From Pandoraea horticolens (GTDB lineage: Bacteria; Pseudomonadota; Gammaproteobacteria; Burkholderiales; Burkholderiaceae): a stretch of 64,000 bases of DNA. The position numbers and the translations under genes were made by a program. Below the pieces are notes generated by a model, which was given only the letters and a program-made list of their open reading frames with translations, was not told the origin of the DNA and did not search any database. Below, piece by piece: positions 26,211-30,250 of this stretch (position 1 is the first letter of the stretch; every line of letters begins with the position of its first letter). Location: positions 310,001 through 374,000 of the forward strand of contig NZ_CABPSM010000002.1 in NCBI RefSeq assembly GCF_902459555.1. Reading direction: 5' to 3'.

Positions 26211-27731
26211 ATGTGTGGCATCGTCGGTGTAGTCTCCAAGTCCCCTGTCAACCAGTTCATCTACGATAGCTTACTGCTGCTGCAGCACCGCGGGCAGGAC
26301 GCCGCCGGTATCGCCACGACGGACGGTCAGTCGTTCTACATGCACAAGGGCAACGGCATGGTGCGTGACGTGTTCCGCACGCGCAACATGCGCGACTTGC
26401 CGGGCACGGTCGGTATCGGTCAGGTACGTTACCCGACGGCCGGTTCGTCGAGCGCCGCACAAGCCCAGCCGTTCTACGTGAATGCACCCTACGGCATTGT
26501 GCTCGCGCACAACGGCAACCTGACGAACTGGGAGCAGCTCAAGGACGAGATGTTCCGCGTCGACCGCCGCCACATCAACACCACCTCCGATTCCGAAGTG
26601 CTGCTCAATGTGCTCGCACACGAATTGCAGCAAAGCGCGCGCGACGGTCTGAACGTCGCGTCGCTGTTCGAAGCGGTGGGCAAGGTGCACGGCCGTCTGC
26701 GCGGCTCGTATGCCATCGTCTCGATCATCTCCGGCTTCGGGCTGCTCGCGTTCCGCGATCCGAACGGTATCCGTCCGTTGTGCATCGGCCGCTTCGATGG
26801 CCCGAATGGCACGGAGTGGATGGTGGCGTCGGAGTCGGTGGCGCTTGAAGGCATGGGCTTCGCGTTCGAGCGCGACGTCAAGCCGGGCGAGGCGGTCTTC
26901 ATCAGCAACGACGGTGAACTGGTGTCGCAGCAGTGTTCCGAGTCGGTGTCGATGCACCCGTGCATTTTCGAACTCGTGTATCTGGCGCGTCCGGATTCCG
27001 TGCTCGACGGCGTGGCGGTCTACGACGCGCGTCTGCGCATGGGCGACTACCTTGCCGAGAAGATTCGCCGCGAGATCGACTATCAGGACATCGACGTCGT
27101 GATGCCGATTCCGGACTCGAGCCGTCCGGCGGCCATGCAGGTTGCCAAGCGACTGGGCCTGAACTATCGCGAAGGCTTCTTCAAGAACCGTTACGTTGGC
27201 CGTACCTTCATCATGCCCGGCCAGGCGATGCGCAAGAAGTCGGTGCGCCAGAAGCTCAACGCCATGCGCGTCGAGTTCAAGGACAAGAACGTGCTGATCG
27301 TGGACGACTCGATCGTGCGCGGTACCACCAGCCAGGAAATCGTGCAGATGGCGCGTGACGCCGGTGCGCGCAAGGTGATCTTCGCGTCGGCTGCACCGCC
27401 GGTGAAGTTCCCGAACGTGTACGGCATCGACATGCCCACGCGCAGCGAATTGGTGGCCTATGATCGCAGCGACGAAGAAGTGGCGCGCATCATCGGTGCC
27501 GACGAACTGATTTATCAGGATGTCGAGGACATGAAGGCCGCAGTTCGTGACATCAATCCGGCGCTGACCGATTTCGATGCGTCGTGCTTCGACGGGAAGT
27601 ACATCACGGGCGATGTGACGACCGAGTACCTGAACCGTCTGGAGCAACAACGCAAGGCACCGAAGGCACCGGTTGTGGAAGCCAGCGAGGGCGACGATAA
27701 CGAGCCGCGCGGGGCTCAGCTTGGCCTCTGA
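26211..27731 (+). CDS. purF: Amidophosphoribosyltransferase
   Basis: The protein has 506 residues. It makes phosphoribosylamine from PRPP and glutamine, the first step of purine synthesis. The N-terminal nucleophile Cys2 is in MCGIVGVVS, directly after the initiator Met, so no propeptide is present (E. coli type). The PRPP-binding loop is VLIVDDSIVRGTTSQEIV. It follows cvpA as in many proteobacteria. Confidence 0.97.
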   Translation: MCGIVGVVSKSPVNQFIYDSLLLLQHRGQDAAGIATTDGQSFYMHKGNGMVRDVFRTRNMRDLPGTVGIGQVRYPTAGSSSAAQAQPFYVNAPYGIVLAHNGNLTNWEQLKDEMFRVDRRHINTTSDSEVLLNVLAHELQQSARDGLNVASLFEAVGKVHGRLRGSYAIVSIISGFGLLAFRDPNGIRPLCIGRFDGPNGTEWMVASESVALEGMGFAFERDVKPGEAVFISNDGELVSQQCSESVSMHPCIFELVYLARPDSVLDGVAVYDARLRMGDYLAEKIRREIDYQDIDVVMPIPDSSRPAAMQVAKRLGLNYREGFFKNRYVGRTFIMPGQAMRKKSVRQKLNAMRVEFKDKNVLIVDDSIVRGTTSQEIVQMARDAGARKVIFASAAPPVKFPNVYGIDMPTRSELVAYDRSDEEVARIIGADELIYQDVEDMKAAVRDINPALTDFDASCFDGKYITGDVTTEYLNRLEQQRKAPKAPVVEASEGDDNEPRGAQLGL

Positions 27732-27783
27732 GCGGTGCCTGAGGCCGGCCAGCCGGGCAAATGCCCAGTGGGCGGGGGGGATT

Positions 27784-27812
27784 TTCCTTCCTCGCCTGCA
27801 ACGTGCTACACT
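27784..27812 (+). promoter_or_regulatory. Candidate metZ promoter
   Basis: TACACT (27807-27812) is a fair -10 element. TTCCTT (27784-27789) sits 17 bp upstream as a weak -35. Transcription would start near 27819, just at the first paired base of the riboswitch aptamer, which supports the assignment. Confidence 0.4.
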
Positions 27813-27818
27813 GCATTT

Positions 27819-27881
27819 CACGTCGATTTGATTTCAGCTTGCGGACGTGGGGGAACATCCCCGAAACAGCTAAAGCGAGGC
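27819..27881 (+). ncRNA. SAM-II-type riboswitch aptamer upstream of metZ
   Basis: P1 is CACGTC (27819-27824) with GACGTG (27844-27849). The loop starts GATTTG, a conserved SAM-II element. A small extra stem GGGG/CCCC (27850-27862) is followed by GAAACAGCTAAAGCGAGG, which contains the conserved GCTAAA. Loop bases TTTC (27832-27835) can pair with GAAA (27863-27866), and CTTGC (27838-27842) with GCGAG (27875-27879), giving the H-type pseudoknot of SAM-II. The downstream gene is metZ, a methionine-synthesis gene, as expected for a SAM sensor. The call rests on motif and gene context without a covariance search. Confidence 0.8.
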
Positions 27882-27899
27882 CTAGACAGATGGATTTCG

Positions 27900-27940
27900 A
27901 GCCCGTTTTGCTGAATAGCGAAACGGGCTTTTCTTTTTTT
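27900..27940 (+). terminator. Intrinsic terminator between the riboswitch and metZ
   Basis: AGCCCGTTTTGCT (27900-27912), loop GAAT and AGCGAAACGGGCT (27917-27929) form a 13-bp stem followed by TTTCTTTTTTT. It lies upstream of the metZ start (27978), so it acts as a leader attenuator: SAM binding would favour it and cut off metZ expression. It cannot be the purF terminator only, because it follows the aptamer. Confidence 0.85.
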
Positions 27941-27977
27941 GGCCGGCGATCGGGCCAACCCAATCACGAGATACACG

Positions 27978-29165
27978 ATGGACTCCTTCGACTTCGATAC
28001 CCTGGCGGTGCGCGCGGGCACGCAGCGCTCCGAGTTTGGTGAGCATTCCGAGGCGCTTTACCTGACCTCGAGTTTCGTATTCAAGAGCGCGGCCGAGGCC
28101 GCCGAACGCTTCGCGCATTCGGAGGAGGGATTCACCTACTCGCGCTTCACCAATCCCACCGTGTCGATGTTTCAGGACCGTCTGGCGGCGCTCGAAGGCG
28201 GCGAGGCCTGCATGGCGACCGCCTCGGGCATGAGCGCCATTGTCTCGGTTGTCATGGCCACCCTCTCGGCGGGGGATCACCTCGTCAGCTCGCAGAGCAT
28301 TTTCGGCTCCACGCTGAACGTCTTCTCCACGATTTTCAGCCGCTTCGGTGTCGAGACGACCTTCGTCGATCCGACCGATCTCGACGCGTGGCGCGCCGCG
28401 ATTCGTCCGAACACGAAGATGTTCTTCCTCGAAACGCCGTCCAACCCGCTCACGGATATCGCCGATATCACCGCCATCGGCAAGATCGCCAAGGAAGCGG
28501 GCGCCCTGTTCGTCGTCGACAACTGCTTCTGTACGCCGGCATTGCAGCGCCCCATCGAGTATGGTGCGGACGTCGTCGTGCACTCGGCAACGAAGTACCT
28601 CGACGGGCAAGGCCGTGTGCTGGGCGGCGCGATCGTCGGCAAGAAAGACTTCATCATGGGCAAGATTTTCACGTTCGTGCGCAGCGCGGGTCCGACCCTC
28701 TCGGCGTTCAACGCCTGGGTGTTGCTCAAGGGCTTGGAGACGCTGTCGCTGCGCATCGAGAAGCAATCGGCCAATGCGCTCGCCATTGCGCAATGGCTGG
28801 AACAGCAACCGCAGGTGGCTCGCGTGTTCTACCCCGGGCTGCCGTCGCATCCGCAGTATGAACTTGCGCAGCATCAGCAGAAGGCGGGCGGGGCGATTGT
28901 CGCGTTCGAACTCAAGGGGGCGACGCCCGCCGAGCAGCGCGAGAACGCATGGCGCGTGATCGACAACACGCGCGTGTGCTCGATTACCGGCAACCTGGGC
29001 GATACGCGTACGACGATCACGCACCCGGCGAGCACGACGCACGGTCGCATCACGCCGGAAGCACGCGCCGCCGCGGGCATCACGGAAGGTCTGATTCGTC
29101 TGGCGGTGGGACTGGAGTCGCCCGCCGACATTCGGGCCGATCTGGCTCGCGGTTTCGTTAGCTGA
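27978..29165 (+). CDS. metZ: O-succinylhomoserine sulfhydrylase
   Basis: The protein has 395 residues. It is a PLP enzyme of the Cys/Met metabolism family that makes homocysteine directly from O-succinylhomoserine and sulfide. The PLP lysine is in [19 protein letters not shown], where the DGQGR variant is typical of MetZ rather than MetB/MetC. The start [14 protein letters not shown] at 27978 lies after the leader terminator; an upstream in-frame ATG at 27939 overlaps the end of the T run. Control by SAM through the upstream riboswitch is inferred. Confidence 0.92.
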
Positions 29166-29179
29166 GCGGAGCCGTCTTC

Positions 29180-30250
29180 ATGAGTCGATTCTGGAGTGCG
29201 GGCGTTGCCGATCTGACGCCCTATGTCCCCGGTGAGCAGCCGCAGATGCAGCGTCTCATCAAGCTCAATACCAACGAGAATCCGTACGGTCCGTCGCCGC
29301 GTGTGCTGGCTGCGATTCGCGAGGCGCTCGGCAGCGATGCCGACGCGCTCAAGCTGTATCCCGATCCCGACGCGCGCCGTTTCAAGCAGGCCATCGCCAC
29401 GCGCTTCGGGCTCGAAGTGGCCAACGTGCACGTGGGCAATGGGTCGGACGAAGTCCTGGCGAATGTCTTTCAGGGGTTGCTGAAGCACGACAAGCCGATT
29501 CTGTTTCCGGACATCACGTACAGCTTCTACCCGGTGTATTGCGGGCTTTACGGCGTGGCGTTCGAGAACGTGCCGCTGACCGAGACGTTCGAGATTCGCG
29601 TCGACGATTATCTCAAGCCGAATGGCGGCGTCATTTTCCCGAATCCGAACGCGCCGACAGGCCGCGTGCTGGCCTCCGGCGAGATCGAGCGCCTGTTGGC
29701 GGGGAATCCGGATTCTGTCGTGGTGATCGACGAGGCCTATATCGACTTCGGCGGCGAGAGCGCTGCGGGGCTGATCGCGAAGTATCCGAACCTGCTGGTG
29801 GTGCAAACGCTGTCGAAATCGCGCTCGCTGGCCGGCTTGCGCCTGGGCTTCGCCATCGGGCATCCGGATCTGATCGAAGCGCTCGAGCGCGTGAAGAACA
29901 GCTTCAACTCGTACCCGCTTGACCGTCTCGCGCAGGCGGCCGGTGTCGCGGCCGTCGAAGACGACGCGTATTTCGAACAGACCCGTCAGGCCGTGATCGC
30001 AAGCCGAGAGGGATTGGTGACGCGTCTGGAAGCGCTTGGCTTCGACGTGCTGCCGTCGACGGCGAACTTCGTGTTCGCGCGTCACCCGTCGCACGATGCG
30101 GCACAACTGGCCGCTGCCCTGCGGGAGCGCTCGATCATCGTGCGGCACTTCAAGCACGCGCGCGTGGCGCAGTTCCTGCGCATCACCGTGGGCACCGAGG
30201 CCGAGTGCCAGACCTTCACACAGGCATTGAAGGAAATTCTGGCGGGCTGA
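29180..30250 (+). CDS. hisC: Histidinol-phosphate aminotransferase
   Basis: The protein has 356 residues and is a fold-type I PLP aminotransferase in histidine synthesis. [45 protein letters not shown] and the PLP lysine in [17 protein letters not shown] are present. It follows metZ by 14 bp, so it is probably cotranscribed with it and may share SAM control. Some HisC paralogues act on aromatic amino acids, which cannot be excluded. Confidence 0.9.

Follow-up and report, generated by a model that had tools for sequence, protein, structure and literature searches.

What regulates metZ in Pandoraea horticolens, and what signal might the regulator read? The question is raised by the leader that separates purF from metZ in this 6.0-Mb genome, on the plus strand of the window (the whole 64,000-nucleotide stretch of DNA that was analysed). 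The leader consists, in this order, of a P1 stem, whose loop carries GATTTG and CTTGC, the 3' strand of P1, a hairpin, GAAACA, GCTAAAG, and a terminator (Table 1). A preliminary description of this DNA had reported P1, GATTTG, GCTAAA, pseudoknot pairing, an extra stem, and a 13-bp hairpin with a T run, and every one of these features could be located upstream of the metZ ATG at 27978. Comparison with related sequences provides good support for the element being a variant of the SAM-II riboswitch, whereas its ligand and its switching are presumed from the class. It is highly likely that the leader acts as a SAM-II riboswitch of the transcription-terminating type, which would shut off metZ when S-adenosylmethionine (SAM) is abundant.

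Table 1. Features of the metZ leader and its neighbourhood (positions are those of the window)
Feature	Position	Strand	Basis and remarks
P1 stem, ACGTC/GACGT	27820-27824 with 27844-27848	+	Sequence and pair counts
P1 and loop	27820-27848	+	GATTTG at 27825-27830; P2 5' strand CTTGC at 27838-27842
Inserted hairpin ("P3"), GGGGGAACATCCCC	27849-27862	+	Stem 27850-27854 with 27858-27862
A-rich joining segment, GAAACA	27863-27868	+	C27867 pairs with G27843
GCTAAAG, 3' strand of pseudoknot P2	27869-27875	+	SAM contact strand expected from published SAM-II/SAM-V structures
Antiterminator strand 1, CAGCTAAAGCG	27867-27877	+	Pairs with 27904-27913; in the MFE fold of 27818-27914
Antiterminator strand 2, CGTTTTGCTG	27904-27913	+	Within the 5' half of the terminator
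Intrinsic terminator	27900-27940	+	Stem 27900-27912 with 27917-27929, 13 pairs; T-rich tail 27929-27940
Extended -10-like promoter, TGCTACACT	27804-27812	+	Predicted transcription start at about 27819
metZ, O-succinylhomoserine sulfhydrylase, predicted regulated gene	27978-29165	+	NF006003, 726 bits (cut-off 522); TIGR01325, 585 bits (cut-off 510)
hisC	29180-30250	+	14 nt past metZ; TIGR01141, 311 bits (cut-off 277)
purF, upstream neighbour outside the switch	26211-27731	+	TIGR01134, 514 bits (cut-off 350)

The standard model does not recognise the element as a member of the class. Rfam SAM_alpha (RF00521) aligned to it only in part (model positions 10-42 of 79) and gave 13.4 bits against a cut-off of 36, a score below threshold being one of the two findings that, taken together, the preliminary description had regarded as speaking against SAM-II. 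The inserted hairpin is most likely the cause of this miss. Among relatives that lack the hairpin, three exceed the cut-off (L090, 45.2 bits; L117, 38.2 bits; L061, 36.2 bits); other relatives remain under it (e.g., L062, 28.5 bits; L066, 27.7 bits; L063, 23.3 bits; L118, 23.1 bits). The low score would also suit a separate class of RNA, the "metXZ element", sharing with SAM-II only the shape of the pseudoknot and sensing another ligand, for example, a methionine precursor; indeed, the text of Leyn 2014 (PMC4239095) treats metXZ as new and distinct from SAM_alpha, and a change of ligand has been published for some variants of SAM riboswitches (PMC10853860). However, such a separation is highly improbable given that the SAM-II and Burkholderiales models detect each other's members in both directions, that L061, L090, and L117, all from Burkholderiales, pass the SAM_alpha cut-off, and that the window element retains the extra long-range pair along with GATTTG, TTGC, and GCTAAA.

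The cross-detection was obtained with three further covariance models. The first, R1, contains the window together with short elements first found with SAM_alpha, and its scores are thus not independent evidence. The second, R2, was made from 22 SAM-II loci of another class without any Burkholderiales sequences and is independent of the window; the other-class loci (L031-L059; same phylum, different class) are taken to be alphaproteobacterial. The third, R3, was made from 25 hairpin-free Burkholderiales elements belonging to other families of the order than that of the window. R3 found the window element with 37.4 bits and an E-value of 2e-10, which is not fully independent and is biased towards likeness because the R3 loci are the best-scoring ones of the R1 collection and R1 includes the window; the runner-up place in the 64 kb reached 12.7 bits. 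The sole gap in the alignment is an 8-nt insertion at the hairpin. The same model detected all 25 hairpin-bearing loci at E < 1e-5, several across their first half only, as well as, at E <= 0.004, 21 of 24 other-class SAM-II loci (the 24 controls are what was used of 29 loci once near-duplicates had been dropped).

In the opposite direction, R2 matched 27 of 29 Burkholderiales loci, a subset of those collected, at E < 1e-4, and the two exceptions have long inserts (two partial matches in L080 and one in L104). On 21 hairpin-bearing loci its matches were weak (E from 0.006 to 1.4), and in the window it ranked the element first of the 64 kb, again weakly (15.1 bits, E 0.048); at E <= 0.01 it had no match in nine listed genomes of the family of the window, the window's own included. 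Judging from these sequence comparisons, homology of the class appears to run in two steps, i.e., from R2 to the Burkholderiales loci, and from the hairpin-free loci, through R3, to the window and to other-class SAM-II. The covariance models, together with a conserved long-range pair and the comparative context, uphold the SAM-II class that had been proposed. Two neighbouring families were also considered. SAM-V (RF01826) was not among the 13 Rfam matches to 27700-28100 at E <= 10. SAM-II long loops (RF01726) was rejected as an identity for the element, as it had no match in 27700-28100 or in the window's own genome, and its cut-off was exceeded in none of 200 genomes, compared with one of 14 control genomes.

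It should be noted that the elements were cut out with patterns demanding ATTTG, TTGC, and GCTAAA, and that the parser also demanded P1 pairing; conservation of these features is therefore partly by construction. Parsing succeeded for 186 of 189 loci (28 of the other class and 158 beta/gamma; L056, L067, and L105 were left out), close relatives and a few duplicate copies are among the elements counted, and a few parses look imperfect (a 0-nt joining segment, one element per group). Among 30 beta/gamma elements, two P1 pairs are altered on both sides (G-C to A-U and U-A to C-G). Two such pairs also arise in 143 of 500 shuffles and in one slid version, and the number of P1 pair types is not above that of shuffles. 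Double-change cells number nine (shuffled mean 1.4; at most 3 in slid versions), and the covariation score of P1 is 0.083 (at most 0.039 in slid versions). The four core P2 pairs are present in 30/30 elements and are invariant, so that covariation is no test of P2, which rests on conservation. The window has all three of the AUUU, UUGC, and GCUAAA segments, which, from published structures, we take to be the predicted SAM contacts. The long-range pair, G27843-C27867 in the window, joins the nucleotide after TTGC to the nucleotide two before GCTAAA, and it was not required by the parser. It is G-C in 156 of the 158 beta/gamma elements; of the 28 other-class ones, 24 have a Watson-Crick pair here (A-T 14, G-C 8, C-G 2). 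It fits the additional SAM-II pair predicted by Barrick and Breaker 2007 (PMC2258182). The P2a of the element is short; 5 bp has been reported for 60% of SAM-II (PMC6061858).

The hairpin inserted between P1 and GCTAAA had been singled out as unusual. The stem is real, but it is not confined to the window and is found in further lineages as well. In 98 of the 158 beta/gamma elements the joining segment measures 12 nt, and in 51 it has at least 16 nt; all 51 of the latter fold into a hairpin. A stem of at least 4 pairs lies beside P1 in 28 of 35 distinct long segments (mean 6.5 and maximum 12 in single-base shuffles). Inserts are also found outside the Burkholderiaceae metZ group, in L104, L163, L185, L187, and L192, and, in the window's own genome, before metX (L080); this scattered occurrence suggests that the hairpin may have been gained repeatedly. 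The metX locus, L080 (G000:C1:380011-380106, minus strand), is a second SAM-II-like element of this genome and the weaker of its R1 matches (32 bits). Its joining segment of 51 nt folds into a hairpin; within 190 nt of the element, no terminator was called.

A counterpart of the inserted hairpin is known from SAM-V. In its crystal structure (Huang and Lilley 2018, PMC6061858), a P3 stem-loop directly follows the 3' end of P1 and is itself followed by A residues facing the P1 minor groove, and the same paper describes P3 as absent from SAM-II. The window hairpin sits at the position of the SAM-V P3, with GAAACA behind it (together 27849-27868), and it would most likely stack on P1, away from the pocket. 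A short P2a is likewise shared with SAM-V, which, however, acts translationally, unlike the terminator platform predicted for the window element. It is possible, though somewhat doubtful, that the metZ leaders of Burkholderiaceae bridge the two classes by combining a SAM-II pocket, a transcriptional platform, a short P2a, and a SAM-V-like P3, the latter having arisen on several independent occasions among betaproteobacterial SAM-II riboswitches and tuning folding speed or SAM affinity. If this were true, SAM-II and SAM-V would be two ends of one family.

The coupling of the aptamer to an intrinsic terminator before metZ, as put forward in the preliminary description, is borne out by comparison: a terminator lies within 190 nt of 149 of the 158 beta/gamma elements, whereas the same rule, applied to the same loci, called one in 21 of 942 random background stretches. 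In the window, the terminator hairpin has a folding energy of -22.3 kcal/mol. Taken by itself, the aptamer has an ordinary fold energy (z -0.14), and a longer piece of the leader reaches z -2.9, which is probably due mainly to the terminator. As purF precedes this hairpin in the same orientation, and as the antiterminator described below is far less stable, the hairpin might simply end purF transcription without being controlled by the upstream motif. However, the gap between purF and the element holds a promoter-like box, the terminators that accompany the elements at the above frequency precede several different genes, and complementarity to the 3' strand of the aptamer is enriched in the 5' halves of these terminators. 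A simple purF terminator is thus a very unlikely explanation.

A strict sigma-70 scan called no promoter for the leader. The -10-like box emerges solely from comparison: of 153 distinct upstream regions from beta/gamma loci, 123 have TAnnnT ending 3-12 nt before P1 (mean 17 and maximum 31 in single-base shuffles). Transcription would start at or just before P1. The direction of transcription also bears on a small RNA from the opposite strand, as modelled by Rfam RF02424, which matches 27790-27933 of the window on the minus strand and whose candidate was confirmed, along with others, by RT-PCR in B. pseudomallei (PMC3521395). The match reaches 55.1 bits against a cut-off of 70, and the -10 box, the T-rich tail, and the met gene are all on the plus strand. 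In 30 of 30 loci (L001-L030), the RF02424 match runs opposite to the sense strand of the element, and the RT-PCR paper itself proposed a cis element for methionine genes. With the promoter box, the terminator, and metZ on the strand opposite to a match that stays below its cut-off, the antisense RNA was rejected, and we regard it as extremely improbable. RF02424 seems to represent a cis-regulatory leader read from the wrong strand.

If the leader is a terminating riboswitch, as we favour, an alternative pairing should compete with the terminator. Such a pairing is available between CAGCUAAAGCG (27867-27877) and CGUUUUGCUG (27904-27913), which form 10 pairs with one bulge at -11.7 kcal/mol, an energy equalled by 6 of 144 unrelated terminators and by none of 100 shuffles. 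A transcript ending at 27914-27917 folds into P1, P3, and the antiterminator (-31.3 kcal/mol). For the full leader, the terminator fold, with P1 and P3 kept, has -38.7 kcal/mol vs. -29.4 kcal/mol for the antiterminator, and the unconstrained fold breaks P1. As the complete terminator is better than the antiterminator by approx. 9 kcal/mol, the decision must fall during transcription, i.e., under kinetic control.

The same complementarity was sought in related leaders. Pairing of the GCTAAAG strand with the terminator 5' half falls within the best 10% relative to unrelated terminators in 43 of 119 distinct terminators, and wrong pairings do so in 6-25. Relative to shuffles it does so in 74 of 119, a control that is lenient, since four wrong pairings pass it in 28, 34, 54, and 22 of 119. 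In a clustered set, the antiterminator is in the best 10% in 19/41 cases against unrelated terminators and in 24/41 against shuffles, and in a hard-clustered set in 6/16 and 8/16, respectively; the signal is absent from 16 terminators of the other class. A TTTAGC motif is modestly enriched (23 of 119 own vs. 14 of 144 unrelated terminators). The loop segment CAGCTTGCGG, considered as an alternative antiterminator, was set aside because it is weaker: relative to unrelated terminators, 7/119 fall in the best 10% for the 5' half and 25/119 for the 3' half of the terminator, compared with 43/119 for GCTAAAG with the 5' half.

On this basis, the following mode of action may be proposed. The SAM pocket would be made up of P1, P3, and the pseudoknot between CTTGC and GCTAAAG, whose pairs are present in the sequence and whose binding of SAM is expected from the class. 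With SAM bound, GCTAAAG would be held in the pseudoknot, the terminator would fold, and an RNA of approx. 120 nt would be released. When SAM is scarce, the antiterminator, i.e., the pairing of the GCTAAAG region with the 5' half of the terminator, would form instead and metZ would be transcribed. In Pandoraea, hisC is probably transcribed along with metZ under these circumstances.

The genes downstream of the elements vary: the 158 beta/gamma elements precede metZ (90), metX (32), a MATE transporter (10), metH (7), metK (6), or a metY/B-like gene (3), and no gene was found after 10. The preliminary description had proposed that the aptamer controls metZ-hisC. Placement before metZ is supported, whereas hisC is next to metZ in only 8 of the 93 metZ loci with room (the rule missed a zero-gap case, L235), and hisC was rejected as a conserved target. 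It adjoins metZ in 9/9 metZ loci labelled as Pandoraea and in L333; as this arrangement is found mainly in Pandoraea, control of hisC is a matter of local gene order. SAM-II or SAM-II-like elements also lie directly before metK, which encodes SAM synthetase, in L064, L065, L092, L093, L097, and L207, from gammaproteobacteria and Burkholderiales.

The preliminary description had placed SAM-II leaders mainly in Alphaproteobacteria. Such leaders are, however, common in Burkholderiales, where, among 300 genomes and at E <= 0.01, R1 matches 213, many of them with 2-4 matches, and R2 matches 120, a distribution that is partly in print (Corbino 2005, Barrick and Breaker 2007, Leyn 2014). R1 had no match in a 1.2-Mb genome of the window's genus. 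Some loci carry SAM-II elements in tandem (L117, L118, L139, L153, L169-L172, L176, L178, L179, L181-L183, and L193; 14 recognised by pattern and L153 by eye). The second element follows the first by 97-168 nt and is of a distinct subtype, with GATTTA or GAGTTA, then ACTTGC or AATTGC, then GCTAAA; tandem SAM-II is already in print, with 44 examples (PMC9481103). In the tandem loci L194, L196-L198, L200, L201, L203, and L205, the second element is followed by the gene of a small protein, 95-118 aa long, in which MFDC or MYDC is found at the N-terminus or close to it, and a MATE-type transporter comes next in 7 of these 8. Scans of five of the small proteins gave no Pfam family at E <= 1, and their NCBIfam matches were at chance level. 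Near Burkholderiales metX loci, there are also matches to the manganese riboswitch under its cut-off of 45 (L062:768-950, plus strand, 35.9 bits; L063:2446-2578, minus strand, 44.1 bits).

How much of this is already known? With the SAM-II of Corbino 2005 (RF00521, PMC1273637), the window element shares P1, an H-type pseudoknot, GATTTG/TTGC/GCTAAA, the long-range pair, a promoter a few nt before P1, a terminator, and methionine genes; it differs in the hairpin after P1, the short P2a, the sub-cut-off score, and its beta lineage. A figure legend on SAM-II in the same paper names Bordetella bronchiseptica, and Barrick and Breaker 2007 (PMC2258182) noted SAM-II with terminators in alpha- and betaproteobacteria. 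The metZ SAM-II of S. meliloti (PMC9373788) likewise precedes metZ, with predicted transcription termination that yields a small RNA (RZ); it is alphaproteobacterial, and SAM-II is said to lack P3 (PMC6061858), whereas the window element has a P3-like hairpin.

The closest precedent is the "novel" metXZ element described by Leyn 2014 (PMC4239095) from 35 betaproteobacterial genomes, which is defined by six conserved blocks, two alternative folds, and a terminator before metX or metZ. It shares with the window element the betaproteobacterial lineage, the gene context, a pseudoknot (of regions 1-4 and 2-6), and the terminator, and the window element is very probably a metXZ element, identity at the level of letters being assumed from these features. 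In that paper, metXZ is separate from SAM_alpha and occurs in one copy per genome, whereas here it is assigned to SAM-II and many genomes have several R1 matches. The second precedent is Bp2_287 (RF02424), found at the same locus in Burkholderiaceae but modelled by Rfam on the strand opposite metZ; Khoo 2012 (PMC3521395) confirmed Bp2_Cand287 by RT-PCR and proposed that it acts in cis in methionine metabolism. BTH_s31 is an intergenic region with microarray expression, 143 nt between probes, whose flanking genes are on the same strand, and a 2024 review (PMC10987360) equates it with RIT77 (135 nt) and Bp2_287. The length of BTH_s31/RIT77, as given there, fits a terminated leader.

The finding is thus not wholly new, because the element is very probably the metXZ of 2014 and the opposite strand of Bp2_287, and betaproteobacterial SAM-II has been in print since 2005. 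A literature search, which covered main texts and mostly journals outside subscription, retrieved no paper that ties metXZ or Bp2_287 to SAM-II and none that reports a P3 in SAM-II. As far as these searches show, three things are new: the link between metXZ, Bp2_287, and SAM-II; a hairpin resembling P3 in a SAM-II element; and the antiterminator as mapped here. Although this is not a new kind of system, the result is useful in that it corrects two annotations. The orphan metXZ element receives a class and a likely ligand, and the Rfam sRNA family Bp2_287 (RF02424) is corrected as to its strand and probable function. Moreover, a common group of these riboswitches seems to be overlooked by the standard SAM-II model on account of a short inserted hairpin.
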